Positions 2 to 33,715 of a DNA stretch of 35,634 bases are shown piece by piece. The DNA is from a virus, in IMG/VR virus record IMGVR_UViG_3300021373_002939, positions 1-35,634 of that record; one strand, 5' to 3'. Numbering within the stretch: position 1 is the stretch's first letter; the number at the start of each line of letters is the position of its first letter. A model generated the notes under the pieces. The model saw nothing but the letters and a program-made list of their open reading frames with translations, made no database searches and was not told the DNA's origin. The position numbers and the translations under genes are program-made.

Positions 2-421
2 GAAGATATTTTATATTCAGAAGCAGAAAAAAAAACTCTAAATAAACCGTTCCGCCTTAAAGACGGAAAAAAGAAGTTTGGCGTGTATGTCAAAAATCCA
101 AAAACAGGCAATGTTGTGCTTGTAAAATTTGGTGACCCAAACATGGAAATCAAAAGAGACAACCCTGATCGCCGACGTAGTTTTAGAGCTAGACACAAGT
201 GTGATACAGCTAAAGACAAAACAACACCCCGATATTGGTCTTGTAAAATGTGGAGCAAAAAGCCTGTTAATAAATCTGTATCCTCTGAAGCTGTAGAGTG
301 GGACGAGGAAGAATTGGTAAGTGAGTGGGGCTGGAATGAAGACGGCTTCCTAGATCAAGATTATTTTGAAGATTACGATCACTTGAAAGATTGTAAAATA
401 GTTGAAGAAAACTTAATTTGA
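2..421 (+). CDS. Conserved phage protein, C-terminal part (gene enters from the left edge)
   Basis: The frame is open from the first bases of the window, so the start lies outside it; a GTG at 83 is internal and not needed as a start. The visible part has a basic lead-in (KPFRLKDGKKKFGVYVKN), then the block GDPNMEIKRDNPDRRRSF, a Cys/Arg-rich stretch with RARHKC and RYWSCKMW, and an acidic tail. I recognise this FGDPNMEIKRD...RARH.C...YWSC.MW pattern as a module repeated in many tailed-phage proteins, often attached to structural or maturation-protease proteins, but its biochemical role is not known to me. The two cysteines and nearby His could bind a metal; that is inference. It is followed by a 30-nt gap with a promoter for the next gene. 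Confidence 0.75.
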   Translation, partial: EDILYSEAEKKTLNKPFRLKDGKKKFGVYVKNPKTGNVVLVKFGDPNMEIKRDNPDRRRSFRARHKCDTAKDKTTPRYWSCKMWSKKPVNKSVSSEAVEWDEEELVSEWGWNEDGFLDQDYFEDYDHLKDCKIVEENLI

Positions 422-452
422 ATTTTCTCCATTTTGACTTAAAATAGTCAAA
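418..452 (+). promoter_or_regulatory. Sigma70-like promoter with leaderless geometry, -10 in a palindrome
   Basis: TTGAAT (418-423), a 16-nt spacer and TAAAAT (440-445) lie directly before the ATG at 452, with 6 nt between. The predicted start of transcription is therefore at the ATG itself. The -10 is the exact centre of an inverted repeat TTGACT-TAAAAT-AGTCAA (434-451), a candidate operator or a small hairpin at the end of the upstream transcript. Confidence 0.6.
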
Positions 453-1126
453 TGGAAAAACCTATTAATTTATCAAAACTTTTCGAATTTTCCGATGAAT
501 GGGAAATATCTTTTGACGAAGAGAATGATTGCTTAATTATAGACAGTTTATATAAATACCCGACTGAAATATATTCATGGCTTAAATCTCAGGATTATCC
601 ACTGTGGAAATATATTGAGCCAGAAAATACAAGAAACACTAAAGATTACTTTGATTGTAGGCTTTGCGTTAATTGGCCTTATGATTTCGGTCCTGAAAAT
701 ATCACTGACATTGAAAACATATGTTATAAATATTTTCAAAGAAGCGAAGCTAGCATACTTAATCCTTTTTTTGAATTTAATTGTTTTAAATCATTAAAAA
801 ACTTTCCCAACTCTAAGCAGCACTTCCCTCATTTGGATGATGTTTTTGGAGTTCCTGACGAAAAATCTATTTTGAACATGGTGGTTTTTATGGATGAAAA
901 TGGGAACGGTGGAACTAATATATATGATTATGATTTCCCTGATAATGTTGAGCATGAAAATGTACTTTTTGATATTTCAAAAAAACATAAGATAGTAAAA
1001 AAAATAGATCATAAATTTAATAGGGCTGTTATATTCAGGGGTAATAAGTGGCATGGAGCTTTTATAGACGACTATGATCATTATACCAAAAATTGGAGAT
1101 ATTCTCAGGTTTATTTTATTGAATAA
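452..1126 (+). CDS. 2OG-Fe(II) oxygenase-like protein (DUF6445-like)
   Basis: A 224-residue protein resembling the DUF6445 group of 2-oxoglutarate/Fe(II) oxygenase-like proteins. A HxD-type iron motif is visible as H127-L-D129 in QHFPHLDD, a distal histidine as H201 in NKWHGAF, and an arginine at about 216 (NWRYSQVYF) that could bind 2-oxoglutarate. Between them lies FMDENGNGGTNIYDY, typical of the double-stranded beta helix. Phages carry many such enzymes, often beside sugar or nucleotide modification genes; the substrate cannot be read here. It has its own leaderless-type promoter and precedes the glycosyltransferase cluster, so a role in modifying a glycan, protein or base is possible. Assignment to the fold is fairly safe, the function is not. 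Confidence 0.65.
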   Translation: MEKPINLSKLFEFSDEWEISFDEENDCLIIDSLYKYPTEIYSWLKSQDYPLWKYIEPENTRNTKDYFDCRLCVNWPYDFGPENITDIENICYKYFQRSEASILNPFFEFNCFKSLKNFPNSKQHFPHLDDVFGVPDEKSILNMVVFMDENGNGGTNIYDYDFPDNVEHENVLFDISKKHKIVKKIDHKFNRAVIFRGNKWHGAFIDDYDHYTKNWRYSQVYFIE

Positions 1127-1155
1127 TAATACGTTTTCTATATAATCCATCGACA
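1119..1155 (+). promoter_or_regulatory. Sigma70-like promoter with leaderless geometry
   Basis: TTGAAT (1119-1124) overlaps the 3' end of the oxygenase-like gene, followed by a 16-nt spacer and a perfect TATAAT (1141-1146). The ATG at 1155 is 8 nt further, so the mRNA should start within about 0-3 nt of the start codon. There is no Shine-Dalgarno sequence. Confidence 0.65.
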
Positions 1156-1985
1156 TGAATATACTTTTTATAAGCGATTTTTCTCTCGATCAAAATCAAG
1201 GGGGGTCACAAAGAAGCTCCTCTTTTTTACTGGAAAAAGGAAGAAATCTAGGGCATGAAATAACCGAATATAATTATGACTCCTCTCCAACAAAACTACT
1301 TCGTAGTTACGACTTGGTCATTTCATCTAATTTAGAAGTTATATCAAAAAATCAACCGCATGTAATTGATTTTTTACTAAAACATACAAACCACGCAAGA
1401 GTCGAAAGAGATTCCTGTCTATATTTAGATGACAAAACTAGAGAGGAATTATTTTCGAAAGCTAAAAAAACCTTTTTTTTAACTGAATTTCACCACGCTT
1501 TTTTTATTGATAAATATGGAGACTACTTTAATAATGTAAACATTGTTCCTTCTTATGTTGATTCAGAAGTATATTTTGAAAACTCTAACGATAAAGATAT
1601 AGATATCGTATACTGTGGTTTTGTCCACCCATTAAAGGGTTCTGAAAATTTAGTAAACTGGGCTAGAAAAAACAAAGATAGATCAATAGATGTGTTTGGT
1701 TGGGGTCAAACCTCTGTTTTTAATAATGTTGGGAATATAAAATTCCATGGAAAAATTGCATATAATGAGACAGCTGATATATTTAGGAGGTCTAATTATG
1801 TTTATCATGATCCAATTGTTAACGAACCTTTTTGCAGAATGACTGCGGAAGCTTCTCTCTGTGGTTGTAAATTTGTTGGCAATTCTGAAAGAATAGGAAG
1901 TTTAATAGAAATAAAAAATAAAGGTCTTGACACTTTTAGAGAGGAGTGCAATAATGCGGTAGATAAATTTTGGAGTTTACTATGA
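1155..1985 (+). CDS. Glycosyltransferase, GT4-like (GT-B fold)
   Basis: A 276-residue GT-B-type glycosyltransferase. The N-terminal Rossmann half begins MNILFISDFS and has GGSQRSS where GT4 enzymes have their acceptor-side glycine loop. The donor half begins near residue 150 (DIVYCGFVHPLKGSENLV), and the GT4 signature E-x7-E is present as E224 to E232 in EPFCRMTAEASLCG. It lacks a signal peptide and membrane segments, so it should act in the cytoplasm of the infected cell, moving a sugar from a nucleotide donor to an unknown acceptor. Its TGA overlaps the ATG of the epimerase gene (ATGA), indicating coupled translation. It is shorter than typical 350-400 aa GT4 enzymes but both halves are present. 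Confidence 0.8.
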   Translation: MNILFISDFSLDQNQGGSQRSSSFLLEKGRNLGHEITEYNYDSSPTKLLRSYDLVISSNLEVISKNQPHVIDFLLKHTNHARVERDSCLYLDDKTREELFSKAKKTFFLTEFHHAFFIDKYGDYFNNVNIVPSYVDSEVYFENSNDKDIDIVYCGFVHPLKGSENLVNWARKNKDRSIDVFGWGQTSVFNNVGNIKFHGKIAYNETADIFRRSNYVYHDPIVNEPFCRMTAEASLCGCKFVGNSERIGSLIEIKNKGLDTFREECNNAVDKFWSLL

Positions 1986-4486: not shown

Positions 4487-4487
4487 A

Positions 4488-5519
4488 ATGAAAAAAGTAA
4501 TTATCACAGGAGTAACAGGACAAGACGGTAGTCACATGGCTGACTATCTACTAGATAACACTGAACACATAATCGTTGCTGGCGTTCGTAGACTGAGTGT
4601 TAAAAACCACGAAAACATCAAACATCTATTAGACAATCCCCGCTTTAAACTCATCGATCTTGATATCACTGATCAGTCGAATGTTAATCGTGTTATCTCA
4701 GAGGAGAAACCAGATTACTTTATCAACTTTGCGGCGAATTCTTTCGTCGGAGTGAGCTGGGACATGCCAGAAAATCACATGAATACAAACTGCATGGCAG
4801 TATTGTATCAACTTGAGGCGATTCGCAAGCACTGTCCAGAGTGCAGATACTACAATGCTGGCTCTTCAGAGGAGTTTGGAGACGTTGTGACCGCTCCACA
4901 GGACGAGACTCACCCACTACGCCCGAGAAGCCCCTACGGAGCTTCTAAGGCGTCTGCAAGGCACTTGGTAAAGGTATGGCGTGAAAGTTATGATTTATAC
5001 GCCATTCAGGGTTGGTTGTTTAATCATGAAGGCACAAGGAGAGGTGAGGAATTCCTTACTCGCAAGGTCACAAAAGCTGTAGCTAGAATTGTTAAGGAAA
5101 TCAGAGACGATAAAGAAGTCAAACCTCTGGAAATTGGCAACCTTGATGCTAAAAGAGATTGGTCTGATGCTGAAGATTTTGTTGTGGGTATTTGGCTAAT
5201 GCTTAATCAAGAAAAACCAAAAGAATATGTATTAGCTTCAGGAGAAACATATACCATTCGTGAGTTTGTAGAGTCTGCATTTGGCTTCGCTGGATTTAAT
5301 CCAGATGAATGCTATTGGGAAGGTGAGGGATCACACTCTAAATATTTTCACCGCGACCAAATGCTCGTTAAAATAAATCCAAAATATTACAGACCAGCTG
5401 AAGTTAATTTACTACTTGGTGATCCAACTCTTGCAGAAAAAGAAATGGTCTGGGTGAGAAAAACAGACTTCTACGGTTTGGTGAAAAAGATGGTTGACAA
5501 TGACATAAGTTTGCTTTAA
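4488..5519 (+). CDS. gmd: GDP-mannose 4,6-dehydratase
   Basis: A 343-residue extended SDR enzyme that converts GDP-mannose to GDP-4-keto-6-deoxymannose, the entry to GDP-fucose, GDP-rhamnose and perosamine sugars. The NAD(P) motif is TGVTGQDGS at the N-terminus, the catalytic triad region is AGSSEEFGD (125-132) with Y150-x3-K154 in SPYGASKAS, and LFNHEGTRRGEEFLTRKVTK matches the dehydratase-specific NHE.PRRGE..VTRKI block. Length is normal. Gmd genes are known in marine phages; the later enzymes for fucose or perosamine are not in this window and would come from the host or elsewhere on the genome. The gene is visibly less AT-rich than its neighbours, which suggests a different origin. Its stop codon lies in the next promoter. 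Confidence 0.92.
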   Translation: MKKVIITGVTGQDGSHMADYLLDNTEHIIVAGVRRLSVKNHENIKHLLDNPRFKLIDLDITDQSNVNRVISEEKPDYFINFAANSFVGVSWDMPENHMNTNCMAVLYQLEAIRKHCPECRYYNAGSSEEFGDVVTAPQDETHPLRPRSPYGASKASARHLVKVWRESYDLYAIQGWLFNHEGTRRGEEFLTRKVTKAVARIVKEIRDDKEVKPLEIGNLDAKRDWSDAEDFVVGIWLMLNQEKPKEYVLASGETYTIREFVESAFGFAGFNPDECYWEGEGSHSKYFHRDQMLVKINPKYYRPAEVNLLLGDPTLAEKEMVWVRKTDFYGLVKKMVDNDISLL

Positions 5520-5529
5520 GATGACCTGA
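5494..5529 (+). promoter_or_regulatory. Sigma70-like promoter with leaderless geometry, start of replication operon
   Basis: A perfect TTGACA (5494-5499) inside the end of gmd, a 17-nt spacer and TAAGAT (5517-5522) that includes the gmd stop codon. The ATG at 5529 follows after 6 nt, so transcription should start at the first codon. It is the only plausible promoter directly ahead of the replication genes. Confidence 0.5.
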
Positions 5530-5996
5530 TGCCTAGAGGTAAAAAGCGATGCCCAGAGTGTAATATTTTTGTGGGCGTAAGAACATTAGCTTGTGATTGT
5601 GGTTTTAACTTTGGTGAGCCCACCAAAAAGAAAAAGCAGAGAAGCAAAGTCCCAGCGAAGCCTAAAATAAATAAAAGAAAAATCATTCTTCGGCTGCTTA
5701 ACGAACCCAAAACAAGCAAGCGTATGTTTTACGCCAGAGAGATGAAGTTACTCAACGATTTGTGTAACCGATACTCTCTCGAATTTATGAATGTAGTTAC
5801 TTTTTGGAAGAAACTAGATTCACTCACCTATCTTCTTAGCCCCAAATTAAAAGACACCATGGATAAAAAGTGGAGGGCTTTTAATTACAAACTTGACAAG
5901 AGTAAGTATGACAAGTATAATATAGGTGAGAAGGTTGGAGAAGATAGAGACCTTAAAAGAAAAACCAAAACAACAAAAGACTTTTTAAATGAGTGA
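5529..5996 (+). CDS. Zinc-ribbon basic protein, function unknown
   Basis: A 155-residue protein with an N-terminal metal-binding knuckle pair: C8-x2-C11 and C22-x-C24 in the first 25 residues (CPEC and CDCG), then a lysine-rich linker (TKKKKQRSK) and a charged alpha-helical C-terminal part. I do not recognise a named family. The zinc ribbon, the basic linker and its position as first gene of the replication operon suggest a nucleic-acid-binding or transcription-related role, which is inference. The start ATG lies 6 nt after a -10 element. The last 8 nt overlap the RecA-like gene. Confidence 0.6.
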   Translation: MPRGKKRCPECNIFVGVRTLACDCGFNFGEPTKKKKQRSKVPAKPKINKRKIILRLLNEPKTSKRMFYAREMKLLNDLCNRYSLEFMNVVTFWKKLDSLTYLLSPKLKDTMDKKWRAFNYKLDKSKYDKYNIGEKVGEDRDLKRKTKTTKDFLNE

Positions 5997-7098
5997 TTCA
6001 ACAAACCTACTAAAAAATTTCCTAAAAACAAACAAGGACGACCATTACAATTTCGAAGAAGAAATTGATTATAAAGTATCAAGCGGCTCTTTGCAGTTTG
6101 ATTTACAACTCGGTGGCGGATTCGGACCAGGACTTCATCGCTTTTGTGGCATGAACGAAGGAGGGAAAACCTCTGAAGCTCTTGAGGTCATGAAAAATTT
6201 CATGGTTTCAATACCTAAATCCAAAGGTGTATATTTCAAAGCAGAAGGTCGCCTTTCTCCAGAGATGAGGGAAAGGTCTGGAATCAAATTTGTGTTCTCA
6301 GCCGATGAGTGGGTTGATGGAACTTGTTTTGTTTTTGAATCAAACATCTACGAAACAGTTGTTGATTTAATGAGGCAGCTTGTTGCAAACAACGAAGAAG
6401 GTGTAAAATATTGTTTTGTTTTAGATTCTGTTGATGGTTTAATTCTTAAAAATGATGAAGCTAAAGGTTTTGAAGATTCAGCTAAAGTTGCTGGTGGAGC
6501 GGTGGTCGCTGCCACCTTCATGAAGAAGATGTCGATAGCTCTTGCTAAACGTGGTCACATGGCTATTTTCATATCTCAGGTTAGGGCAGACATTAAGCTA
6601 GACCCATATACAAAAGCGCCAATAAGACAGACAAGCGCCACAGGAGGTAATGCTTTGTTACATTTTGCTAACTGGATTATTGAGTTTGAACCTCGCTTTA
6701 GTAAAGATATTATTTTGCAGAACCCATCAATCAAAAAGATGGACATGCATAAAAACCCGCCTATAGGGCACTTTGCAAACGTTACTGTTAAGAAGTCGCC
6801 AAACGAGAAGACCAATACCCGAATTACTTATCCAGTGCGTTATGGAAGAAAACATGGCACATCGATTTGGATTGAGAAAGAGATTGTTGATCTTCTATAT
6901 GCTTGGGAGTTTGTTCAGAAAAAAGGCTCATGGATTCAAGTTACTGATGAATTTAAAGAAATCATTATAGAGAACGGTTTAGAGTTTCCAGATAAAATGC
7001 AAGGAGACAACAACCTATTTAAGGTTATTGAAGATAACGAAAAAACATCCTCGTTTTTAATTAGCTATTTTAAAAACGCTATTAGCGATTTGACATGA
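5989..7098 (+). CDS. RecA-like recombinase
   Basis: A 369-residue RecA/UvsX-type ATPase for strand exchange in phage recombination and repair. Walker A is GMNEGGKTS (54-62), Walker B is YCFVLDSVDG (141-150), and E86 in FKAEGR corresponds to the catalytic glutamate that follows the second strand. ISQVRADIK and TGGNALLHFAN match the RecA L1/L2 region (RecA: INQIR.KIG and TGG.AL.FYAS). The Walker A sequence is diverged from the GPESSGKTT of cellular RecA, as in other phage recombinases. The N-terminal polymerisation motif is not clear. It overlaps its upstream neighbour by 8 nt and its downstream neighbour by 4 nt (ATGA). Confidence 0.88.
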   Translation: MSDSTNLLKNFLKTNKDDHYNFEEEIDYKVSSGSLQFDLQLGGGFGPGLHRFCGMNEGGKTSEALEVMKNFMVSIPKSKGVYFKAEGRLSPEMRERSGIKFVFSADEWVDGTCFVFESNIYETVVDLMRQLVANNEEGVKYCFVLDSVDGLILKNDEAKGFEDSAKVAGGAVVAATFMKKMSIALAKRGHMAIFISQVRADIKLDPYTKAPIRQTSATGGNALLHFANWIIEFEPRFSKDIILQNPSIKKMDMHKNPPIGHFANVTVKKSPNEKTNTRITYPVRYGRKHGTSIWIEKEIVDLLYAWEFVQKKGSWIQVTDEFKEIIIENGLEFPDKMQGDNNLFKVIEDNEKTSSFLISYFKNAISDLT

Positions 7099-7502
7099 AA
7101 TTTTTAGACCCATTAGGTAGACCAAGAAACCTAAAGAGTGCTAAAAAATATTTGATTGATTGGGATGCCAAAAGCAGAAGTAAATTCCAGAACAGGGTAA
7201 AAGATTTCTTAAAACCTTTTTGGAAAAACGATATTGTTTTTGAAGAGTTCAGAATAGTCGGGACAAAGCTTTCTTTGGATTTTTACAACGCAAACAAAAG
7301 AGTTGCTGTTGAAGTCCAAGGGGATCAACACGTTCGCTATGTAAAACACTTCCACAAGAACAGGTTAAAATACCTAGACCAGCTAAAAAGAGACCAGAAG
7401 AAACTTGACTTCTGTGAAATCAATGATATAAAGTTGGTAGAGGTTTATACTACAGATGAGATAAACGCATCCTTATTCAGTGACCAAGATATATTTTTAT
7501 GA
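7095..7502 (+). CDS. PD-(D/E)XK-type endonuclease (small)
   Basis: A 135-residue protein with a restriction-nuclease-like core: EFRIVGTKLSLDFYNANKRVA, where D62 is the conserved aspartate, followed by the strand AVEVQGDQH with E73 and Q75 as the E-x-Q version of (D/E)XK. Further on, a helix (KYLDQLKRDQKKLDFCEIND) and a last strand (IKLVEVYT) complete the DUF559/Vsr-like arrangement. This suggests Mg-dependent DNA cleavage. Between the recombinase and the helicase it may serve as a repair or resolution nuclease; a homing role cannot be excluded. ATGA overlaps connect it to both neighbours. Confidence 0.65.
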   Translation: MKFLDPLGRPRNLKSAKKYLIDWDAKSRSKFQNRVKDFLKPFWKNDIVFEEFRIVGTKLSLDFYNANKRVAVEVQGDQHVRYVKHFHKNRLKYLDQLKRDQKKLDFCEINDIKLVEVYTTDEINASLFSDQDIFL

Positions 7503-7732
7503 AAGAAGAAAACATAGAATTTTGCATACCCGATAACTTCATAGAAAAAATTTATGAGTTTAGTGGCGGTGCTGATAAATACAAAGGTATCATTCTCGCC
7601 GTCTGCACAGAAAACGGTTCTCCAACTATATACTCGAAATTCGACTCCTCTATAGTTGAGTTAGGCTTGAAGAAAGCTGTGTCGTATTATATCATTGGTG
7701 AGGTGGAAGAGGTTGACAATAAAAACAGATGA
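7499..7732 (+). CDS. Small protein, unknown
   Basis: A 77-residue acidic protein with no motif that I recognise. The sequence alternates short beta-like stretches (GIILAVCTENG, TIYSKFDSS) with an amphipathic helix (IVELGLKKAVSYYI). No signal peptide, membrane segment or metal motif is visible. It is linked by 4-nt overlaps to the nuclease upstream and to the helicase downstream, so it is translated with replication genes and could be an accessory factor. This position is the same that helicase loaders take in some phages, but the sequence itself gives no support for that. Confidence 0.55.
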   Translation: MKEENIEFCIPDNFIEKIYEFSGGADKYKGIILAVCTENGSPTIYSKFDSSIVELGLKKAVSYYIIGEVEEVDNKNR

Positions 7733-9243
7733 TTTATAACTTAGAACTCGAAAAACAATTACTGGCTGCTTTAATTAAAGAGCCAGAGCTTTTCTGTGAT
7801 ATTGCTAATTTCATAGACCACGATGATTTTTATTCTGAAGAATCAAATCTTCACAAGACTATCTTTACGATCATTAAACAAGCTATCGAGAATAGCGAAG
7901 AGATTGATGAGGTTATAATCGGACAAAGAATAGCTAGTATAGGTTTGTCTTTTGAAGATAGGCTTAACCCTTCTGATTACATCAAGTCTCTTGCTTTAAG
8001 GAAGGTGCCTAAAGGTAACCTTATTAAGACAGCTAAAGAGTTAAAGAAAGTTTCTGTAAGGAGAGGTATTTATAAAGCCGCTCAAGAGATGGCGAAGCAG
8101 ATGAAATCTGTTTCTCCAGAGACTACCTATCATGAGATCATTGAGAAAGCTGACAATGTTTATAACTCAAGAATAAACCTGTATGAAACTGGCGATGATG
8201 AACCCGTCAATATTTATGACGAGATGGAGTTCATTATTGAAGATAGGGGTAACAATCCTATTGATGAGTTTGGCATGATGGGTCCACACAAAAAGGTTAA
8301 TGAGATGTATGGGTCCCTCTTAAGACCAGGAAACATTACGGTTGTTGTCGCTCGTTCTGGTGTTGGAAAGACTCAGTTCTGTATGCACTACGCAACTCAA
8401 GTAGCGTCTCAATACGATGTCCCTGTTTTACATTTTGATAATGGAGAGATGAGTAAAGAAGAACTCATTATGAGACAGTGTGCGGCAATCTCTGGAGTAC
8501 CATCTCATCTTTTAGAAAGCGGCAAATGGAGAAAAGCTGGAGAAGATGTGGTCAGAAAAGTAAGAGAGACATGGGATAAAGTTAAGAATCTAAAGTTTTA
8601 TTATTATAATGTTGGCGGTATGGATGTTGATTCTATGGTTAACACCCTCAAGAGATTTTACTACTCTAAAGTTGGCAGGGGTAACAAGATGATATTTTCT
8701 TTTGATTATATTAAGACTACTAGCGAAGGATCTGCTAACAAGAATGAGTGGCAGCTTGTTGGAGAAATGGTGGACAAATTCAAGAAATGTGTTCAAAAAG
8801 AAATACTTCACGATGGGGAACCTATTATACCGATGATTACTTCTGTTCAGTCAAACAGGTATGGAATAACCAATAACCGCAACGCACAAAACATTGTCGA
8901 TGACGAGAGTATTGTTTCCCTATCTGATAGAATCATTCAATTTTGTTCTCACATGTTTATTCTTCGGAATAAGACTGCTGACGAAATAGAGTCTGAAGGA
9001 GGAAGGTTTGGTACTCATAAATTAATAAACATCAAATCAAGACACCTCGGCAAAGATGTTGCTGGAGCGCTTGAGCCTGTTCAAGTAGGAGATTCGCTTA
9101 GAAAGAATTCTGTCAACCTTGAGTTCAAGAATTTTAATATTACTGAAAGAGGTGACCTTCGTGATATAGCTCGCTCATTAGAAGGCGGGGGAGATATAGA
9201 TGAGTCACAAGTAGACTCACTTCCAGATTTCGAAAATGTCTGA
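7729..9243 (+). CDS. dnaB: DnaB-type replicative DNA helicase
   Basis: A 504-residue replicative helicase that unwinds DNA 5'-3' at the fork as a hexamer. The N-terminal DnaB domain begins NLELEKQLLAALIKEPELF, followed by a linker helix and the RecA-fold motor from about residue 180. Walker A is ARSGVGKTQF near 208-217, the strand VPVLHFDNGEMSKEEL matches DnaB motif H1a, and MIFSFDYIKT near 322 is Walker B. Length and domain order match cellular DnaB (about 450-480 aa). It overlaps the small upstream gene by 4 nt and the primase by 8 nt, so helicase and primase are probably made together. Confidence 0.9.
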   Translation: MIYNLELEKQLLAALIKEPELFCDIANFIDHDDFYSEESNLHKTIFTIIKQAIENSEEIDEVIIGQRIASIGLSFEDRLNPSDYIKSLALRKVPKGNLIKTAKELKKVSVRRGIYKAAQEMAKQMKSVSPETTYHEIIEKADNVYNSRINLYETGDDEPVNIYDEMEFIIEDRGNNPIDEFGMMGPHKKVNEMYGSLLRPGNITVVVARSGVGKTQFCMHYATQVASQYDVPVLHFDNGEMSKEELIMRQCAAISGVPSHLLESGKWRKAGEDVVRKVRETWDKVKNLKFYYYNVGGMDVDSMVNTLKRFYYSKVGRGNKMIFSFDYIKTTSEGSANKNEWQLVGEMVDKFKKCVQKEILHDGEPIIPMITSVQSNRYGITNNRNAQNIVDDESIVSLSDRIIQFCSHMFILRNKTADEIESEGGRFGTHKLINIKSRHLGKDVAGALEPVQVGDSLRKNSVNLEFKNFNITERGDLRDIARSLEGGGDIDESQVDSLPDFENV

Positions 9244-11291: not shown

Positions 11292-11326
11292 CTTATTATT
11301 ATTGCTGTGGTATCATACAAACATAA
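11288..11326 (+). promoter_or_regulatory. Sigma70-like promoter with leaderless geometry, polymerase genes
   Basis: TTGACT (11288-11293) overlaps the upstream stop codon; a 17-nt spacer leads to TATCAT (11311-11316). The ATG at 11326 follows after 9 nt, so the transcript should begin about 2-4 nt before it. This argues for ATG 11326 as the start, because the upstream in-frame ATG at 11302 lies inside the spacer. Confidence 0.65.
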
Positions 11327-17889: not shown

Positions 17890-17901
17890 ACATTATTGAT
17901 C

Positions 17902-19029: not shown

Positions 19030-19063
19030 ATTTAAAAATAGAAATAAAAGGAGATCTACATAG

Positions 19064-19076
19064 TATACATAAAATA
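19064..19076 (+). promoter_or_regulatory. Possible -10-only promoter with leaderless geometry
   Basis: TATACA (19064-19069) lies 6 nt before the ATG at 19076, the same geometry as the stronger promoters, and is preceded by TAG as at 23349. No -35 box is seen at 16-18 nt. An AAGGAG at about 19048-19053 is too far (22 nt) to be a ribosome binding site and might be an activator box. Weak. Confidence 0.3.
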
Positions 19077-21396: not shown

Positions 21397-21398
21397 TC

Positions 21399-23822: not shown

Positions 23823-23992
23823 ATGGAAGAATATCAAAAAAACTAAGATCAATAATTAATCCTGAAGATTCAATAACAAGAAAAGTTTATCGCAGGGCTA
23901 AAAAACAATACAATAAAACTCCGAAACCTTTGAGGGCTAACTTTTTATCTTCTTTGGAAGATATATTAAAAGGCTCTAAGATTAAGGATTAG
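23819..23992 (+). CDS. Small basic phage protein (57 aa), convergent overlap with tail gene
   Basis: An ORF of 57 codons starting in an ATGA overlap with the GNAT gene. The product is basic and helical, with RKVYRRAKKQYNKTPKPLRA in the middle and NFLSSLEDILKG near the end. The pattern R..YR.AKK.Y...P...R..FL is one I associate with small proteins of marine phages that have no known function. Its TAG overlaps the stop codon (TAA on the other strand) of the tail gene by 3-4 nt, so the two convergent operons end on each other with no room for a terminator. Confidence 0.65.
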   Translation: MNGRISKKLRSIINPEDSITRKVYRRAKKQYNKTPKPLRANFLSSLEDILKGSKIKD

Positions 23993-25569: not shown

Positions 25570-25581
25570 ATTAATTATTTA

Positions 25582-28500
25582 TTAAGTATTTTCAAAACCT
25601 ACCACTGTTACCCCTTCATTTTCTACTTCCTCATAGACTTCGTCAACTTGAACACTAAAAGAAGCGCCATCAGAATCAAAATATTTAGTATTAATGTCTA
25701 CATTATTAAAAACATCTGCTAATGATTGAATTTTTAAAGTATAAATGCCAATAGTTTCAGGTGAAAAATTAATTTCTAAACTATCGATTGTCTGCGGTGA
25801 GGTTGATTTACCTCCAGGTTTATTTATATAGTAGTAATAACCTGTTGCATTTTCTACAGGTTCCCATTCAGCAATTACCCTGTAAAGCTGCTCTCCCCCC
25901 TCTTGGAAACCGCTAACAAAAATATCTACATCTGGGTTATCTATTTTGATGTATTTTGTATCGTTAATTAAGATTTCTTGTTCGGTTTTGTATGCTCCGT
26001 ACGTACCTTCTTTCTCTAAGAAGTTGATGCTATCTTCTATCTCTTTGAATTTTCCGCTAATATATTTAGCGGCTACCACTTGGTATGAATTATTTTCCGA
26101 TTCTTTAATGTTTGTTATCTTATAAACTTGATCGCTAGAGTCCTTCGCTTGAAAACGGTAAGTAGAACCCTCTGGGATATATCTTAAAAGGTTATAAGAT
26201 ACATCATTTTTATCTACATATATTTTATCTCCATACGATTCTGATTGTTGGCCTTTATATCCACCCCAACCAGTTATTTTGAAATCTTTTATTTGAGGGT
26301 TTCCTATTATATTTATATCTTGATCGACAACTCCTCCATAATAATCCAAATCTGTTATCTGGTCAAAGTTTAAGAAAGTTCCAGATAAATCAAAATACTC
26401 TATGCCTCTTTTTGTTGTTGATAGTTCGTCGTAATAATAACCGCTTGTGGTAAACGCCGTCCCCTTACTCAAAGACTTGAAATTAAAACTCTTTTCTCCT
26501 GTCGGCCCTATAAACAGATTATATAAATCGCTATCTGTGTAAGATTTTCCCGTAGAGAAAACCCAACCTGTCGATTTTATATCGAACCATATTATTTGAT
26601 TATTTGTCCCAGTGTATATAGCATATTCTTCATATAATTCAAATTCAGCATTACCACTATCTTCTATATAATCAATATCATATCCAGGCCCGTAAGAATC
26701 ATAACGATATAGCCCAGCAAATTTATCTCTAATCTCTGGGTATTCGGTTGATGGAGAAAAAACAAACTCACTAACCCTAGACCTTAATTTTTGAGATTCA
26801 ATATCATATTCTCCCTTTGTTTTATTTCCAGTTGGTACATAAACAGTTATAGACCCTGCGTAGTCTGTTGTCTTAAATGGTTCTGATGTTCTTATAACCC
26901 CTTCTTTTGGATCTATACTTAAAATCCTTCCTACATTTGTTCTTAATGTTTTTAATTCGTCTTCTATTACTACCAAGTCTCCAGGTCTACATAATAATAT
27001 CTCAGTTCCAGCGATAAAAGAAACAGATTCGTTTTCTTTGGTTGTCTGATACATCAGATGTTTTGCCGCTCTTTTAGCCATCGCTTTTGATGTAACTCCA
27101 GCTGCAGTAAATTCTCGTTTAAAAAGTCCTCTCTTTATTATATCACTCTCGTTTTCTACGTACTCTATTTTTGTTTTATAGCCATCGTATTTATCTTGGT
27201 AAACAACCTCTACAGCATTAAATTTTTGGTCTTTGGCATAACTCTGATAAGAAAAAAGTCCATCGGACACATTTGAATTAGTGAATAAAGCCATTGGTTT
27301 TTTGATTCTATCGTCAGAGAATGTTATTGTTTCATTTTGTAAATAAACTATACCTCTAAATATTGAGGCTATTGAGTTAACAACATCAAATATTTTAGCT
27401 CCAGCAGTAAAAGATATATTACAAGTAAATCTAGGTTCTAACCCCCCTCTCTCGTCTGGGACTCCTACAAAAAACCCCTGATCGTCAACAGAATCGCAAA
27501 ATCTTCCTATTGAATATAGATCCCATTTATTAACTTGTTCCTCTAGTATTTGTTCTCCTAGACCATATCTAGTAGATATTAATATATCATATAAAATCCA
27601 AGCTGGATTATCTGTCCATCCAAATTTGAAAGATCCGTCCCAGTCTCCTTTATAAATATGTTTAGAGTTTGCTGAAACGTTTTCAAATTCTTCTACTGTT
27701 TTAAATACTCTTTTGTCTTTTCCGTTCTGATAAATTGGATAATAATTAGAAGGTATTTTTACTTTTTTAAATTTAGCTCTATATTTTCTTTTAGGTATGT
27801 CATTAAATACTCTGGAATCTATCTTGGTGGCTACTATAGAAGAAAATGGATATGTACATTGGGCCTCGATGATTTCAGTTACTTTTATCAAGCTTAAGTC
27901 TTTATTAATAAGGCTAGAGTTTGATTCTGTTGATAATTTAGTTATTTTTACATATCTTTTTATATCGTTATCTTCTCTGTATTCTGTATCTTCTTGAATG
28001 TCTGCATATGGTATGTCTGGCAATAAAAAAGGAGTGCTAATACCACCTTGATTTGAGTTGTCTGTTGTTCTATAAATTTCTCTTATATCTTTATAGTCTG
28101 TAATAGAGTCTTTTATATCTGGATTGCCTATATCCATATAATTTGGACTTTCAACAAGAGCTATTATTTGGAAAAACTTTTCAACAAATGGTATTTGTTT
28201 GCCTGTTCTATCTACTAGTCCCGTTTCTACTCTAAGGTTTACTGGAGCTGGTATTCTTGATCCTTTGTAATCACCGCCTCCAACACCCTCATCTTCGATA
28301 GTATCTACCAAAGACTCAATAGAAATTGTTATGAAACAAGATTTAGAGTTTGGGTTTTCTACTATATGTATAACTGGCTGTGCTCTTTCGTCATAATTCT
28401 TTTTGCTTTTATTCCAATTTGAGTAATTAATATTACTTGACGTCCCAGACTTATTCCTTATGTCTGCGCTTCCTTCTTCTATAGCCAACAGCCAATCTTC

Positions 28501-28950
28501 ATCCATTTGTGGAATACCATCTCTGGAGTAATTTAATCTTGGAGTTTTACCATCTATTTTTTGTAGCGTATTGCTTGTTTCCGCTAATCTTTGTATTCCC
28601 CTAAATGCGGAAACACTAGAATAAGGCGATGGTTTTCCCTGTGTATTGAAAGGGCCAGGGAGTTTAGAATTATAATAATGGTCTATATAAATATCTTTAA
28701 AATAAGAAAGGGGAGTTTGTGTTTCTTCTCCGTTTCTGTATTCAGCCATTATATTTGAATAGTTGTATTTTTTACCACCAACTATTATATCTCCTCTGTT
28801 GGATACGTCAAAAACAGCCAAGCCATCTAAATTTAAATGGTAATCAATTTCTTCTTTAGACATCAAGAAGTTATTCCATTCTTCATATGAAGTGCTTTTA
28901 ATACCAGCGATTAAATAAACAACAATTTGTGCAAGTGCCTGTGTTCCCAT
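25582..28950 (-). CDS. J: Tail tip host-specificity protein gpJ, central hub part
   Basis: A 1122-residue protein equal to the main body of lambda J, the tail-tip hub that contacts the receptor. It contains NLRVETGLVDRTGKQIPFV, a long hub region with NPAWILYDILISTRYGLGEQ and WDLYSIGRFCDSVDD, FTCNISFTAGAKIFDVVNSI, and RPGDLVVIEDEL, all matching the phage tail-hub domains of J. NPAWI.YD...~~RYG.G is particularly typical. Near the end (about 1020-1090) VIAEWEPVENATGYYYYI looks like an FN3 domain. The N-terminal signature of J is not here but in the gene directly upstream, one nt away. It is followed by the distal tail gene after 12 nt. Confidence 0.85.
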   Translation of the reverse strand: MGTQALAQIVVYLIAGIKSTSYEEWNNFLMSKEEIDYHLNLDGLAVFDVSNRGDIIVGGKKYNYSNIMAEYRNGEETQTPLSYFKDIYIDHYYNSKLPGPFNTQGKPSPYSSVSAFRGIQRLAETSNTLQKIDGKTPRLNYSRDGIPQMDEDWLLAIEEGSADIRNKSGTSSNINYSNWNKSKKNYDERAQPVIHIVENPNSKSCFITISIESLVDTIEDEGVGGGDYKGSRIPAPVNLRVETGLVDRTGKQIPFVEKFFQIIALVESPNYMDIGNPDIKDSITDYKDIREIYRTTDNSNQGGISTPFLLPDIPYADIQEDTEYREDNDIKRYVKITKLSTESNSSLINKDLSLIKVTEIIEAQCTYPFSSIVATKIDSRVFNDIPKRKYRAKFKKVKIPSNYYPIYQNGKDKRVFKTVEEFENVSANSKHIYKGDWDGSFKFGWTDNPAWILYDILISTRYGLGEQILEEQVNKWDLYSIGRFCDSVDDQGFFVGVPDERGGLEPRFTCNISFTAGAKIFDVVNSIASIFRGIVYLQNETITFSDDRIKKPMALFTNSNVSDGLFSYQSYAKDQKFNAVEVVYQDKYDGYKTKIEYVENESDIIKRGLFKREFTAAGVTSKAMAKRAAKHLMYQTTKENESVSFIAGTEILLCRPGDLVVIEDELKTLRTNVGRILSIDPKEGVIRTSEPFKTTDYAGSITVYVPTGNKTKGEYDIESQKLRSRVSEFVFSPSTEYPEIRDKFAGLYRYDSYGPGYDIDYIEDSGNAEFELYEEYAIYTGTNNQIIWFDIKSTGWVFSTGKSYTDSDLYNLFIGPTGEKSFNFKSLSKGTAFTTSGYYYDELSTTKRGIEYFDLSGTFLNFDQITDLDYYGGVVDQDINIIGNPQIKDFKITGWGGYKGQQSESYGDKIYVDKNDVSYNLLRYIPEGSTYRFQAKDSSDQVYKITNIKESENNSYQVVAAKYISGKFKEIEDSINFLEKEGTYGAYKTEQEILINDTKYIKIDNPDVDIFVSGFQEGGEQLYRVIAEWEPVENATGYYYYINKPGGKSTSPQTIDSLEINFSPETIGIYTLKIQSLADVFNNVDINTKYFDSDGASFSVQVDEVYEEVENEGVTVVGFENT

Positions 28951-28951
28951 T

Positions 28952-30784
28952 TTACTTACCTTTCTTACTTTGTCTTAGAGCCCCCGCCTTTACTGCAGAG
29001 ACATTGCTTACATTAAGCAATTCTAAATAAAAACCTTTCACTTTCCCATCCCATTTACAATCTGAATCTAAATTAGGCACTAAAAGGTTTAATCTTTTAC
29101 CTAAGAATTCACCTCTAGTCACTGTGGATTTTGGCTCTATGGAGTAGAAATAGTTTACATTCCTGGGTGCAGGTATCTCTTGTATTGTACCTGCAGTCAG
29201 CCAATTAGATATACTAGTCGCGGCATTTGCGGTAGAAGTACTAATGCTCGTCTTACTTGTTACAAGATAATATTTGCCACCATAATAAAACTTTTGGTCA
29301 TCAACGTAAATCTGTGAGTTTTGCTCATAATTTATTTTTTCTATAAAGTCAATATCTTTAAAGGTGAATTCATCTTCCGCTTGATTAAAACCCTCTATAG
29401 TTGCATCTGGACTGTAACTCAAGAACATGTAAGGACCCATCAATTTTTGAAGTGACGCTTCGCTTTGAGATATATCGGCTTGTGCTGATAAATCTGTTTG
29501 TGAAAACCCTAAAAGATCTTCTTTGGTTATCGCCGCGTAATTTCCGTTCTCTTGATCTAAAAACGTAGGGAAACCTATATCCTCTAAGGTTCTTCTTAAA
29601 TATTCTCGACTTAAACCGTCTTCTCTACTGCCATCTATATTAACCTCGTCAATTAGTTGATTTATACCCTCAATAATTTTATGTCTATAAATTCCAGTTT
29701 CATTAGTCTCTTTAATGCTTTCGGTCCAAACACTAAACTGTAGTGTCATTTCAGAGTAAAAAGTATTTTCCCCTAATTCGTTTTTTTGTTGATTTTCAAA
29801 AAAGAAAGTAGCGCCGATTGCTATATTTTTTTCTTTTATTTGATTAGCTCTTTTATATACTCCATAATGATTCCTCGCACCCTCTCTGCCATATTTTTTT
29901 ACATAATTATCCCATTCTGTATAAGACTCATCTATATCTGGTTGATAATATTCACTCGATCTTCCTGATCTTCCTCTTCCTCCATTATAATACCTGCTAG
30001 AAAATGAAGGGGTGTAAGGTTTATAATATGCTGATAATTCAGTCTCCGCATATCTAGCCCTAGCTTCATCTATCGAATATACATTCATATTATTGTAATC
30101 TACGGCAATTCCAGTAAAACCACCTAACTCTGGACTCGATATATCTAAACAAGCAAAAGTTTTTTGATTATAAAAAAAATCGTTGCTGGATTTTATGGGT
30201 GTAGCCTCAATCATTGACGCTATTAACACACTATTAGAGCTTTTCTTTTGTAAGTTCTTTTTATTTATTGTACTGGTGCTGTATGTGACAGTACTTCTAG
30301 ATGTTCTGGAGTATCTACTTCTACTTCTACTTCGAGAAGAATAATAATTACTTGTTCTTTCTTTTTTAATTTTAATACTTTTATAAGTAAAATCATTCAA
30401 GGCGCTTTCATTGTCATCTATTTTTTGATATGTTCTTTTTACGTTTTCATTAAATCTGTCTGTTTCGCTATCAAGTGTATAAGGAAATTCTAGAATAGCT
30501 TCATCATATCTTTGTACAAAGTTATCATTAGTAACTTCAACTGGGGTATCATTCAAATAAATTCCCTGCAAAAAAGATGCAGAATTTAATGTATACCCAT
30601 TGGTATTGGTAAGGCCTTCTATTGGTCCATCCGAGATTAAATCTACTGTTTCAGAGTAAGAGTAAGAAGCTGCAACAGAATAATCTCCAACACGAGGGGG
30701 TTTTAATGCCGAAGGTTTTGGCTTTGAACCACCACCCTTCCCTTTAGCGCCAGCTATACTATGTTTTATTTCTAAATGCTTCAT
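28952..30784 (-). CDS. Tail tip protein gpJ, N-terminal part as a separate gene
   Basis: A 610-residue protein that begins like lambda J: a basic glycine-rich start (GAKGKGGGSKPKP), then YSETVDLISDGPIEGL and GIYLNDTPVEV, matching the J sequence SxxVLDLISEGEIEGL...I.LdgTPv. An Arg/Ser-rich segment (about 147-172, SSRSRSRSRYSRTSRSTV) and a Gly/Arg stretch (NGGRGRSGRSSEY) are inserted and are not found in lambda J. The stretch LLGFSQTDLSAQADISQSEA precedes the C-terminal domain. It is followed after a single base by the J core gene, so the two probably build one tip complex. It overlaps gpI by 4 nt. Confidence 0.75.
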   Translation of the reverse strand: MKHLEIKHSIAGAKGKGGGSKPKPSALKPPRVGDYSVAASYSYSETVDLISDGPIEGLTNTNGYTLNSASFLQGIYLNDTPVEVTNDNFVQRYDEAILEFPYTLDSETDRFNENVKRTYQKIDDNESALNDFTYKSIKIKKERTSNYYSSRSRSRSRYSRTSRSTVTYSTSTINKKNLQKKSSNSVLIASMIEATPIKSSNDFFYNQKTFACLDISSPELGGFTGIAVDYNNMNVYSIDEARARYAETELSAYYKPYTPSFSSRYYNGGRGRSGRSSEYYQPDIDESYTEWDNYVKKYGREGARNHYGVYKRANQIKEKNIAIGATFFFENQQKNELGENTFYSEMTLQFSVWTESIKETNETGIYRHKIIEGINQLIDEVNIDGSREDGLSREYLRRTLEDIGFPTFLDQENGNYAAITKEDLLGFSQTDLSAQADISQSEASLQKLMGPYMFLSYSPDATIEGFNQAEDEFTFKDIDFIEKINYEQNSQIYVDDQKFYYGGKYYLVTSKTSISTSTANAATSISNWLTAGTIQEIPAPRNVNYFYSIEPKSTVTRGEFLGKRLNLLVPNLDSDCKWDGKVKGFYLELLNVSNVSAVKAGALRQSKKGK

Positions 30785-31362
30785 AATTTACTGATTTGGC
30801 TCGATGATTTAGTTTGTGTAGTATTACTATCCAGAGCATTTCTTCTAAACGCCTCAAAGGTCTCTTGGTTTTGAGGGTATGTTTTCAAAGATGTTTGAAT
30901 AACTTCGCTACCAACCAAGAGTTCTCCATAACAAATAGGTACTGGGGTTGCTTGCGCAGCTCTGTTCTCTGTGCCTCTAAATATAAAAGATTTCTCCAAA
31001 GCGTTTGTGCTTTGATTTATTTCTGGCGGTGTTGGCAAATCTGGCATTAATGCTATTGCAACTACAGTACTTACTACAACAAAAGCTGCTGCTGCAGCCC
31101 ATAAACCATCTCCGCACATAACTGGTATAAATTCTACTTCTTTATGTTTCTTCTGCCCTATGTGTTTTTCTTTATTAAATTTTTCACCATCTACTATCAA
31201 AGAATAATAAAAACCATTTCTTTCTAAATCTAAGACTCTTTTTTTAAAGCCATTTCTATTGCAATCTATAGCATCAACAACCTCACCGACTCTTCCCAAT
31301 TTCATAGAAAAAGAGTCGCCAAATTCCTTACCAAGAAGTCCATGTATTTTAATATTAGTCAT
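30781..31362 (-). CDS. I: Tail assembly protein gpI-like
   Basis: A 193-residue protein like lambda I. The N-terminal 80 residues form the ubiquitin-like domain (IKIHGLLGKEFGDSFSMKLG; SLIVDGEKF; EVEFIPVMCG). A hydrophobic segment follows at about 88-106 (WAAAAAFVVVSTVVAIALM), then a C-terminal part with RAAQATPVPICYGELLVGSE, which matches the conserved NP.P.~YG...vGs..i block at the end of the family. It helps assemble the tail tip and is probably absent from mature particles, as is thought for lambda I. It sits between K and J as in lambda, overlapping K by 8 nt and the J N-terminal gene by 4 nt. Confidence 0.85.
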   Translation of the reverse strand: MTNIKIHGLLGKEFGDSFSMKLGRVGEVVDAIDCNRNGFKKRVLDLERNGFYYSLIVDGEKFNKEKHIGQKKHKEVEFIPVMCGDGLWAAAAAFVVVSTVVAIALMPDLPTPPEINQSTNALEKSFIFRGTENRAAQATPVPICYGELLVGSEVIQTSLKTYPQNQETFEAFRRNALDSNTTQTKSSSQISKL

Positions 31363-31762
31363 TAATATTTTTAAATTTTTTTAATTCACTTTCTTCTACA
31401 CTACTTTTTAAAGGGGTATAGAAATTCATTTTTTTTGTATTTAATGAGTATATAAAAAACGGCAAACAACTATTCTCAGACATTAGCACATCTTTTTCGG
31501 ACTCCTCTTCGTCTCCATATACATGACTATGCCATACGGCTATAGGACTATAATCTTTTAAGAATAAATAATACTCCATAGGATCTATAGTAAAACTATG
31601 CTCAGGTTCTGATGATTTATTTTCGCATAAAAAAGCGGTGTATTTATTCTCTGACTTACCTATAAACCCACAAACTTCTTGGTTTAAATAAGAGTCTGAC
31701 CATTCTTGTATTTTTTTTAAAATACTTTTAGCATTTTTAGATTTAAAATATTCTTTTTCCAT
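31355..31762 (-). CDS. K: Tail tip protein gpK-like, JAMM metalloprotease domain only
   Basis: A JAB/MPN+ (JAMM) protein. E47 in NQEVCGFIG and H96-S-H98-x7-S106-x2-D109 in WHSHVYGDEEESEKD (numbered from the longer start) form a complete zinc site, so it may be an active peptidase. Lambda K has the same JAMM domain followed by an NlpC/P60 domain; here the protein ends after SSVEESELKKFKN and the NlpC domain is missing. I favour ATG at 31762 (MEKEYFKSKN, 4 nt after the gpL stop, 135 aa). The alternative ATG at 31816 would add 18 residues and overlap gpL by 50 nt. It overlaps gpI by 8 nt. Confidence 0.8.
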   Translation of the reverse strand: MEKEYFKSKNAKSILKKIQEWSDSYLNQEVCGFIGKSENKYTAFLCENKSSEPEHSFTIDPMEYYLFLKDYSPIAVWHSHVYGDEEESEKDVLMSENSCLPFFIYSLNTKKMNFYTPLKSSVEESELKKFKNIND

Positions 31763-31766
31763 TTTT

Positions 31767-33623
31767 TTAATTTGGTCTTTGAAATCCAAAACCATCTGTA
31801 CCAGGAAATCCACCAAATGGCAAAAAAGACAGCTCTTCTATAGAGCTTACTCTTTCGTTAAGTGAATAAATATAACGATAAAGAAGTCTGTAATCTCCAC
31901 CACCATTATTGGTTCCGTTATAAATAAGATCTTGTTTGTAATTGCTTCTATCCCTTATTCCAGTTTCACCATCAACTATGTAAGGTCTATCCCACCAACC
32001 CAAAAGTCCGTTTGTTGCCAGTCCTTTTACCAATTCTTCTTCTGAACCAACTATTTCATTATAAGGTTTTGCTCTTAAAGCGCCATTATTTAATTTTCTA
32101 TATAACAAATCTATTTCATCATTAAAAACATATCTATCCCACATACAAACGTTTTCTAGATAAGCAATAAAACGAGCATTTCTAGTATAAGTTGTATTCC
32201 AATTTGAATCTAAGTCAGTTGCAAAAAGTCTGAAATAATCTAATATTGGTGTTTTCATTATATAACCCTCGATACTCTTTTTGTTGTATGGATTATACCA
32301 TTGCAATTTTCCTTCGGCATTCCTTCTGACTACAAATTTAAAACCTTGTTGCCCATCAACTGCTGGTTCGCTATCTGGTTTTGCTCCAAAGTATCTATTA
32401 TAACTGTTTCCAGATTGCCTGTAATAATAATAGTCTGTATCAGTTCTTTCGTAATGAGTGAATTCAAGACCCTCGTATACCGTTGGGTTGGTTGTTAAAT
32501 ACATTGATTGGCCTTTAGATGACAGAGCTGGATTTCTTGTAAAATTAAAAATCATAGTCCACTCACCGTCCCCACTTAGAGTTTGTAAATATCTGGTTGA
32601 ATTCTTAGGTTCAAAATGACAGTTCCCATATGCAGTTCCGTTATTAGAGTCTATTCTGGTGGTTAGTCTTTCAACCTCTTCAGTCCCAACAAACCTGGTC
32701 ACTGCTTGGTCTGATGTAAAACGTAATTTACAAGAAGATATTTTTTTATTACATCCATCTTTATCCCAAAAATCAGGATGTTTTTCTGGATTTAATCCTA
32801 CTGAATTTGTTTTAGCTACATAATAATTAGTCAAAGGTATAGGTTCTCCAAGCCCGTTTCTTACATTTATTCTAACCCTATCGTTTCTAAGAAACACAAC
32901 ATCTCCAGTAGTATATTCTTTTCTTTCGTCAAATTCATTCAACAACTCTGGTTGTTCAAATGTGGATATAGGTATTTGATCTCCATTAACATCAGCAAAA
33001 GGTCTTCCGTCTTCTTTTTGTATTGGTAATCCAGCATATCTACAGCCTTCGCCGCGATATTTCCAATAACAGTATTTACCCATTATTTTTCTGTGATTTA
33101 TTTCAAAAGTTTCTAAATCCAGCGGTGACGTTAATTCAAGCTCAACAAATATTTTATTTTCTTGTGTTTTTTGTGATACTACATAAACTTGATTTGAAAT
33201 TTCTGCAGAAGTGTCAGATTCCCCAAATGGATTACCTCCATCAAAATTCACATCGTCCAAGAATTTAATAAAAGTTCTTCTTCTTTCTATCCTTGCGTTC
33301 TGGAAGTCGTCATACTTTAGTAGCATGGTTGTAATAAAGTTATCTTTATTAGATATCTTTATTCTTGGTCTGTTTATTTTACCATCAGCCCCTATTTCAA
33401 AACCCTCCATCTCTATACCTATTGGCATATATGTTTTACCTTGCCAGACAACGCCTTTTCTAAACAAAGATCCATCGTGCATTGCAAAAACACTACTAGG
33501 GCTATTTATAACATCTGGATAAACCATAAATAAGTCTATCATAGAACCTGGTTCTAGTTCTAATAAAGATTTTGCAATGTTATCTTTGCCTTTTCCCATG
33601 AAATATATTACACCTTTAATCAT
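31767..33623 (-). CDS. L: Minor tail protein gpL-like with Fe-S cysteines and lectin-like extension
   Basis: A 618-residue protein. Residues 10 to about 300 match lambda L: LLELEPGSMIDLFMV, ISNKDNFITTMLLKYDD, VELELTSPLDLE, and four cysteines C185, C194 (YCYWKYRGEGC) and C291, C298 (GCNKKISSC) with RF after them, the ligands of the Fe-S cluster in gpL. The remaining 300 residues are an addition not found in lambda L; ENVCMWDRYVFNDEIDLLY fits a LamG/concanavalin-like end strand, so a carbohydrate-binding domain is possible. An in-frame ATG at 33599 (MGKGKDN) is an alternative start. First gene of the minus-strand tail operon. Confidence 0.8.
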   Translation of the reverse strand: MIKGVIYFMGKGKDNIAKSLLELEPGSMIDLFMVYPDVINSPSSVFAMHDGSLFRKGVVWQGKTYMPIGIEMEGFEIGADGKINRPRIKISNKDNFITTMLLKYDDFQNARIERRRTFIKFLDDVNFDGGNPFGESDTSAEISNQVYVVSQKTQENKIFVELELTSPLDLETFEINHRKIMGKYCYWKYRGEGCRYAGLPIQKEDGRPFADVNGDQIPISTFEQPELLNEFDERKEYTTGDVVFLRNDRVRINVRNGLGEPIPLTNYYVAKTNSVGLNPEKHPDFWDKDGCNKKISSCKLRFTSDQAVTRFVGTEEVERLTTRIDSNNGTAYGNCHFEPKNSTRYLQTLSGDGEWTMIFNFTRNPALSSKGQSMYLTTNPTVYEGLEFTHYERTDTDYYYYRQSGNSYNRYFGAKPDSEPAVDGQQGFKFVVRRNAEGKLQWYNPYNKKSIEGYIMKTPILDYFRLFATDLDSNWNTTYTRNARFIAYLENVCMWDRYVFNDEIDLLYRKLNNGALRAKPYNEIVGSEEELVKGLATNGLLGWWDRPYIVDGETGIRDRSNYKQDLIYNGTNNGGGDYRLLYRYIYSLNERVSSIEELSFLPFGGFPGTDGFGFQRPN

Positions 33624-33674
33624 ATATTATGATAATTTATTGCTTTTTAAACTTTACAAAAAAAATATATTCAA
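33624..33674 (-). promoter_or_regulatory. Possible promoter for the tail operon (minus strand)
   Basis: On the minus strand TTGAAT (33674-33669) lies back to back with the -35 of the plus-strand promoter, but the hexamer 17 nt further (TTTAAA, 33651-33646) is a poor -10. A second option is TATCAT (33634-33629), 5 nt before the ATG at 33623, with TTGTAA 19 nt upstream. A late, phage-specific promoter is also possible. None is convincing. Confidence 0.25.
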
Positions 33675-33679
33675 AAAAC

Positions 33680-33715
33680 TTGAATTTGTTTAAAGTATCC
33701 TTAAAATATAAGGAA
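33680..33715 (+). promoter_or_regulatory. Sigma70-like promoter with leaderless geometry, -10 in a palindrome
   Basis: TTGAAT (33680-33685), a 16-nt spacer and TAAAAT (33702-33707), with 7 nt to the ATG at 33715. The -10 lies in the inverted repeat TCCTTA-AAATA-TAAGGA (33698-33714). The -35 is half of another inverted repeat, ATTCAA-AAAAC-TTGAAT (33669-33685). The sequence is almost the same as the promoter at 418-445. Confidence 0.65.

Follow-up and report, generated by a model that had tools for sequence, protein, structure and literature searches.

The present study concerns the window, i.e. the whole stretch of 35,634 nucleotides (nt) of viral DNA analysed (IMG/VR record IMGVR_UViG_3300021373_002939, positions 1 to 35,634), and the promoter-like sites located directly in front of its start codons. 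The source is an uncultured tailed phage with lambda-like tail genes. The window covers only part of a larger phage: the relatives identified through DnaE and the RecA-like protein reach 112 kilobases (kb), and the clade's larger contigs span 72-112 kb. On the minus strand it carries a lambda-like tail operon, and its other genes include a replication unit (RecA/UvsX-like, DnaB-like, primase and exonuclease), a Clp-like ATPase gene and glycan genes. DnaE, DnaB and the glycan genes were assigned from their translations and from Pfam hits in the orthologues of G015, a member of the window's subclade.

Sigma70-type sites at start codons

An earlier reading of the window (the sequence-only reading) had claimed promoters in front of seven genes, and all seven are present at the positions and with the hexamers that it gave. 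The -35 boxes read TTGAAT, TTGACA, TTGACT or TTGAAA, the spacers are 16-17 nt, and the -10 hexamers (TAAAAT, TATAAT, TAAGAT, TATCAT or TAACAT) end 6, 8, 6, 9, 6, 8 and 7 nt before the ATGs at 452, 1155, 5529, 11326, 17665, 17938 and 33715, respectively.

418..454, plus strand: predicted sigma70-type leaderless promoter and start; -35 TTGAAT 418-423, -10 TAAAAT 440-445, ATG 452, DUF6445-like gene
1119..1157, plus strand: predicted sigma70-type leaderless promoter and start; -35 TTGAAT 1119-1124, -10 TATAAT 1141-1146, ATG 1155
5494..5531, plus strand: predicted sigma70-type leaderless promoter and start; -35 TTGACA 5494-5499, -10 TAAGAT 5517-5522, ATG 5529
11288..11328, plus strand: predicted sigma70-type leaderless promoter and start; -35 TTGACT 11288-11293, -10 TATCAT 11311-11316, ATG 11326
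17630..17667, plus strand: predicted sigma70-type leaderless promoter and start; -35 TTGACA 17630-17635, -10 TAACAT 17653-17658, ATG 17665
17902..17940, plus strand: predicted sigma70-type leaderless promoter and start; -35 TTGAAA 17902-17907, -10 TATAAT 17924-17929, ATG 17938
33680..33717, plus strand: predicted sigma70-type leaderless promoter and start; -35 TTGAAT 33680-33685, -10 TAAAAT 33702-33707, ATG 33715

Using a fixed criterion (TAnnnT with at most two mismatches to TATAAT, a -35 box with at most two to TTGACA, no more than three in total, spacer 15-19 nt), a site was detected 5-9 nt upstream of 8 of the window's 34 refined start codons, including the coupled start at 12659. The background was 1.0% for ATGs in Markov sequence with matching dinucleotide content and, for the window's non-start ATGs, 0.8% (9/1118), which corresponds to binomial P values of 1.7e-9 and 2.7e-10, respectively. 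Hence, the check proposed along with the sequence-only reading, to compare -10 hexamers by distance with random sequence, confirmed the enrichment before starts, and its looser test (TAnnnT 6-9 nt upstream) gave 13/34 starts vs 118/1118 other ATGs. The total of promoter-like sites, 43 on the plus and 18 on the minus strand where 29 +/- 5 per strand were expected, is not clearly above chance; the signal is the position of the sites and not their number. The site before 12659 passes the criterion and was left out of the promoter set because this start is coupled (ATGA), while an isolated TTGACA-17-TATAAT at 5893 was excluded as a unit, the next ATG being 67 nt away. An additional site lies below the criterion in the window; it is probably an eighth leaderless promoter, judging from its orthologues, most of which carry sites.

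19039..19078, plus strand: probable eighth leaderless promoter, weak in the window; -35-like TAGAAA 19039-19044, -10-like TATACA 19064-19069, ATG 19076

For the analysis of the clade (DnaE identity 49-90%, RecA-like protein 43-92%) eleven large contigs (72-112 kb) were extracted, genes were called mechanically and 466 uncoupled starts were pooled. In every one of these 11 relatives the 5-9 nt bin holds the most sigma70-type sites, and the pooled counts at distances of 5, 6, 7, 8 and 9 nt are 34, 25, 19, 18 and 10, with roughly 2 per nt beyond. The share of uncoupled starts having such a site is 13-33% in the relatives vs 0-4% in lambda, T4, P23-45, Zemlya and HTVC010P analysed with the same pipeline. 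Since the AT-rich T4 and HTVC010P also score low, AT content alone does not yield the pattern. Coupled starts have far fewer sites than uncoupled ones. The remaining genes are coupled to the upstream gene, mostly via ATGA overlaps, and the commonest gene junction in the clade is -4, i.e. ATGA. The layout that had been proposed as a genome-wide strategy thus recurs in 11/11 large relatives; the window from which it was proposed is a fragment and not a whole genome.

Comparison of individual genes showed a sigma70-type site at 5-9 nt in 13/20 orthologues of 5529 (12 at 6 nt), 35/51 of 11326, 17/17 of 17665 and 16/26 of 19076. The layout of gene 452 is kept in one orthologue (L028), and conservation of the promoter at 33715 is poor. 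The promoter-proximal ATG is conserved across strong protein divergence. Moreover, third positions account for 99/166 (5529), 256/382 (11326), 68/122 (17665) and 114/180 (19076) of the differences in codons 2-12, which indicates that coding begins at this ATG; no downstream in-frame ATG is conserved among the orthologues of 5529, 11326 and 19076. Shine-Dalgarno sites were detected at 0/20 (5529), 0/17 (17665), 0/26 (19076) and 5/51 (11326) of the orthologue starts, and clade-wide, words resembling Shine-Dalgarno sequences show no enrichment before starts, nor do they exceed the control in most contigs. As inner genes are coupled, such sites would be largely dispensable there.

Gene 5529 is the first gene of the replication unit, which exemplifies this organisation, and gene 11326 encodes the PHP domain of a split DnaE.

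5529..11291, plus strand: example of a unit with a predicted leaderless first gene; RecA/UvsX-like, DnaB-like helicase, primase, exonuclease; inner starts overlap the upstream stop

DNA polymerase III alpha (window 11326-15202) is distributed over three open reading frames (ORFs; PHP, exonuclease and core) with ATGA overlaps between them, and in G023 the core is split once more into parts approximately 1.3 kb apart. Before 452 (TGA 419-421 in TTGAAT) and before 11326 (TTGACT) the upstream ORF terminates within the -35 box, which contains its stop codon; TCTTGAC is kept in many 11326 orthologues, an extremely compact gene junction. A 37-amino-acid (aa) ORF at 2950-3066 has ATGA overlaps with both neighbours; it looks like the remnant of a methyltransferase N-terminus, and through it gene 3063 would be coupled to the gene before.

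The GTGTAA element and sigma factor candidates

A blind count of words before uncoupled starts revealed a second element, GTGTAA, with 59 occurrences vs 2.7 expected, placed 8-9 nt before the ATG. For GTGTAA/T we found 41 sites at a distance of 8 nt before the 466 uncoupled starts vs 0-3 at distances above 11 nt, and at 7-11 nt 75 uncoupled vs 12 coupled starts carry it. The motif is (A)GTGTAA, a single element at the -10 position, and an alignment of 80 sites carries little information upstream of GTGTA, where a -35 box would lie. Of the 41 GTGTAA sites in G010, 17 are followed by an ORF start (0.6 expected; 0-1 in control phages), while in the window's subclade (G015, G019 and G022) exact GTGTAA before ORFs is less frequent, 2-3 each, and GTGTAT variants occur. 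The window carries one of each, and the former precedes the tail operon, in which inner genes abut or overlap.

33597..33613, minus strand: predicted second-class (late-type) leaderless promoter and start; GTGTAA 33613-33608, 8 nt, ATG 33599-33597, tail operon
23989..33599, minus strand: tail operon downstream of the predicted GTGTAA promoter; minor tail protein, tail assembly protein, central fibre J-like protein and neighbours
34676..34692, plus strand: putative second-class variant; GTGTAT 34676-34681, 8 nt, ATG 34690, small 83-aa protein; same in L120 and L144

The GTGTAA before 33599 is kept at 7-10 nt in 5/5 orthologues. Position 33599 is therefore probably the true start of the tail operon, and the first ATG chosen by the ORF caller (33623), which lies upstream of the motif, is probably wrong. 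While the host-type promoter class of the sequence-only reading is present, its scheme was incomplete, having overlooked this second class.

Searches with sigma70 region 2 gave matches, mostly weak, in 12 of 12 contigs searched. Two sigma-like families emerged: A2 (190-210 aa, e.g. L106:646-1215), which is present in 11/11 large relatives and whose gene is located outside the window, and A3 (approximately 230 aa, e.g. L124:8159-8857), present in five. The structural model of A2 has a pLDDT (predicted local distance difference test) of 83 and its top PDB matches using Foldseek are all sigma factors, while the A3 model is poor (pLDDT 66). A2 is also homologous to a full sigma70 protein with regions 1.2, 2 and 4 (PF04542, PF04545 and PF00140) encoded at 5115-5978 of L171, a related contig that is binned in a Woesebacteria metagenome-assembled genome (MAG) and carries homologues of clade proteins. 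On the basis of region 2 and 4 homology and the modelled fold, A2 classifies as a sigma70-family factor. Being universal in the large relatives, it would be a better candidate than A3 for reading GTGTAA. Kinship of A2 or A3 with gp55 of T4 was considered and rejected, as no significant profile match was obtained; the alignments were shallow.

Proposed leaderless translation and its rivals

From the computed positions, conservation, statistics, start-codon constraint and sigma fold, we infer transcription starts, a mode of translation, a timing and a sigma for GTGTAA as follows. Most transcription units would begin at, or within approximately 3 nt of, the start codon. In the replication and metabolism units, sigma70-type promoters (TTGACA, 16-17 nt, TATAAT) have their -10 ends 5-9 nt before the ATG; here the host RNA polymerase with its own sigma would begin the mRNA at the A of the AUG, leaving a bare 5' AUG on which ribosomes would start translation. 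The tail genes, and many other genes of the relatives, have (A)GTGTAA approximately 8 nt before the ATG and no -35, and it is most likely the host polymerase together with a phage-encoded sigma that reads these promoters. Judging from gene content, the host-sigma units might be expressed first, whereupon the phage sigma would direct the polymerase to GTGTAA. Inner genes would be reached by translational coupling, mostly at ATGA overlaps. Leaderless translation, with host-type and GTGTAA promoters placed at start codons and inner genes coupled, is the best reading of the data, and we hold it with good confidence. Its core, leaderless first genes followed by overlap coupling, had already been suggested from the sequence, and the 5-9 nt peak in the relatives, the coding constraint from the promoter-proximal ATG and the ATGA junctions all lend it support.

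Some observations weigh against it. A recognised element is present at only 29-50% of the uncoupled starts in the relatives, where starts were called mechanically; the others may be miscalled, may depend on unrecognised elements or may have leaders. In gene 17665, an in-frame ATG at codon 10 is conserved in 12/17 orthologues. The lack of Shine-Dalgarno sequences, part of the original argument, holds for the clade overall and for most contigs, but G021 and G015 show some excess. Finally, although the top matches of A2 are sigma factors, the Foldseek E-values are weak (best 9.5e-3).

It could be argued that the -10-like sequences are a by-product of an AT-rich start context in an AT-rich genome, without promoter function. 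The AT content is approximately 66%, the enrichment of A/T-rich words extends to coupled starts, and we noted above that promoter-like sites are not clearly in excess. However, the -10 has a TTGAC partner at a spacing of 16-17 nt and is fixed to 5-9 nt from the ATG, both boxes are kept in orthologues, coupled starts show far less of the pattern, and it is near absent in the equally AT-rich T4 and HTVC010P; we find this explanation hardly credible. It is very improbable, too, that the promoters are real while translation begins at a downstream in-frame start, such that the mRNAs have ordinary leaders and the N-termini are misannotated. The codon-10 ATG of 17665 would fit, and the tail ORF 31767-33623 exemplifies a wrong first ATG in this genome, but change dominated by third positions is apparent already in codons 2-12 of all four sigma70-type genes tested, and a conserved downstream ATG is lacking in three of them, whereas the promoter-proximal one is itself conserved.

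Alternatively, the main transcripts could come from further upstream, with the ATG-proximal promoter, though real, being minor or regulatory. Since several promoters are located within the upstream gene or immediately behind it, read-through transcripts probably exist too. Yet a distance of 5-9 nt matches normal sigma70 spacing from -10 to +1 onto the A of the ATG, and an unimportant start would not keep this distance in 65/88 orthologues (5529, 11326 and 17665), which makes this alternative improbable. The most serious rival, although still unlikely, concerns GTGTAA only, which could be an RNA or DNA motif at start codons (e.g. a translation enhancer or operator) and no promoter. It is recognised by its position before the ATG alone, it has no -35 partner, its sigma specificity is inferred, and a weak TAnnnT/-35 match is also present in 3/5 tail-operon orthologues. 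Against this, it occupies the -10 position and is commonest before uncoupled genes, and none of the large relatives lacks a gene for a sigma-fold protein.

Relation to known systems, host and other features of the clade

Most known cases of leaderless mRNA in phages concern single genes or a few phages, the classic one being lambda cI from PRM, and phage late sigma factors are also known. In lambda this concerns a single gene and is not genome-wide (0% in our scan). T4-type late promoters (TATAAATA) are read by the phage sigma gp55. The GTGTAA class resembles these in having a single -10-position element, no -35, a phage-encoded sigma (here a candidate) and structural genes downstream; it differs in that the motif is not TATAAATA but (A)GTGTAA, which is placed for leaderless starts, and in that A2 and A3 lack a profile match to gp55. 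Also, T4 makes strong use of Shine-Dalgarno sequences (41% of uncoupled starts). Deinococcus and Mycobacterium are leaderless-rich bacteria, with the -10 directly before the start codon and no Shine-Dalgarno sequence as in the clade; in those bacteria the cell itself has this property, in the present case a phage clade. In Lactococcus cremoris approximately 13% is leaderless (PMC10986495).

With respect to Thermus phage P23-45, its middle and late promoters are of the extended -10 class and depend on host sigma-A holoenzyme modulated by gp39 (PMC7403470). Both P23-45 and the present clade would combine leaderless mRNAs with host polymerase, while the clade has a full -35/-10 set plus the GTGTAA class. 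Berdygulova et al. are said to have described, in 2011, its middle and late mRNAs as leaderless, made by host polymerase from -10-type promoters. In our scan only 2.4% of the uncoupled starts of P23-45, the nearest precedent, had a site, a low score that would follow if its promoters are of the extended -10 type and lack a -35.

A clade-wide leaderless layout with GTGTAA was not found in the literature searched, most subscription journals being outside the coverage. The wider proposition, that in a widespread uncultured clade nearly all expression is leaderless, with two promoter classes, the second set by a new element (A)GTGTAA and read by a phage sigma, and Shine-Dalgarno recognition is bypassed altogether, has in our judgement an even chance of being correct. 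The data offer a testable promoter element together with a sigma candidate, and correct gene starts, e.g. 33599; gene callers based on Shine-Dalgarno sequences may set starts wrongly in phages of this kind.

Should the host, too, depend on leaderless initiation, this would help to identify it; otherwise the phage would have its own way to compete for ribosomes. The expectation that the layout is a clue to the host led to none. Co-occurrence with MAGs was too scattered (bins labelled Lokiarchaeota, Verrucomicrobiales, Halobacteriovorax, Flavobacteriaceae and Woesebacteria). The pattern TTGAC-18-TATAAT-5..8-ATG is rare in Bacteroidota and Bdellovibrionota and gave approximately 97 matches in 116 genomes of Patescibacteria (2 in the control reading), but the pattern was rejected as host evidence: a control distance of 20-23 nt gives about three quarters as many matches, so the layout there is not distance-specific and reflects common sigma70 promoters rather than leaderlessness. 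In the Woesebacteria bin, 3/5 pattern matches lie on the phage contig L171.

In an annotated phage collection (50,697 records) the window's RecA-like protein and the A3 sigma-like protein had no matches, and the DnaE, Clp-like and terminase proteins had only distant ones; by close pattern search, no IMG/VR relatives of the window's tail protein were detected. G015 has two genes of approximately 3,170 aa each (L106:8135-17650 and L107:360-9884), and BspA-type leucine-rich repeats (best E 2.3e-181) are present among the G015 proteins scanned, which exclude these two ORFs. G010 and G009 (L109:7768-14933 and L115:6592-19597) carry large tRNA arrays and a transfer-messenger RNA (tmRNA; RF00023) with unusual tags, GNNKIVSFRKPNYSSKTVAFAA and GKNKVVTFRKSAKVARKASLAAA, and in G010 a group I intron is located beside tRNA-Leu; the tRNA arrays and tmRNA could be compared with those of host candidates.

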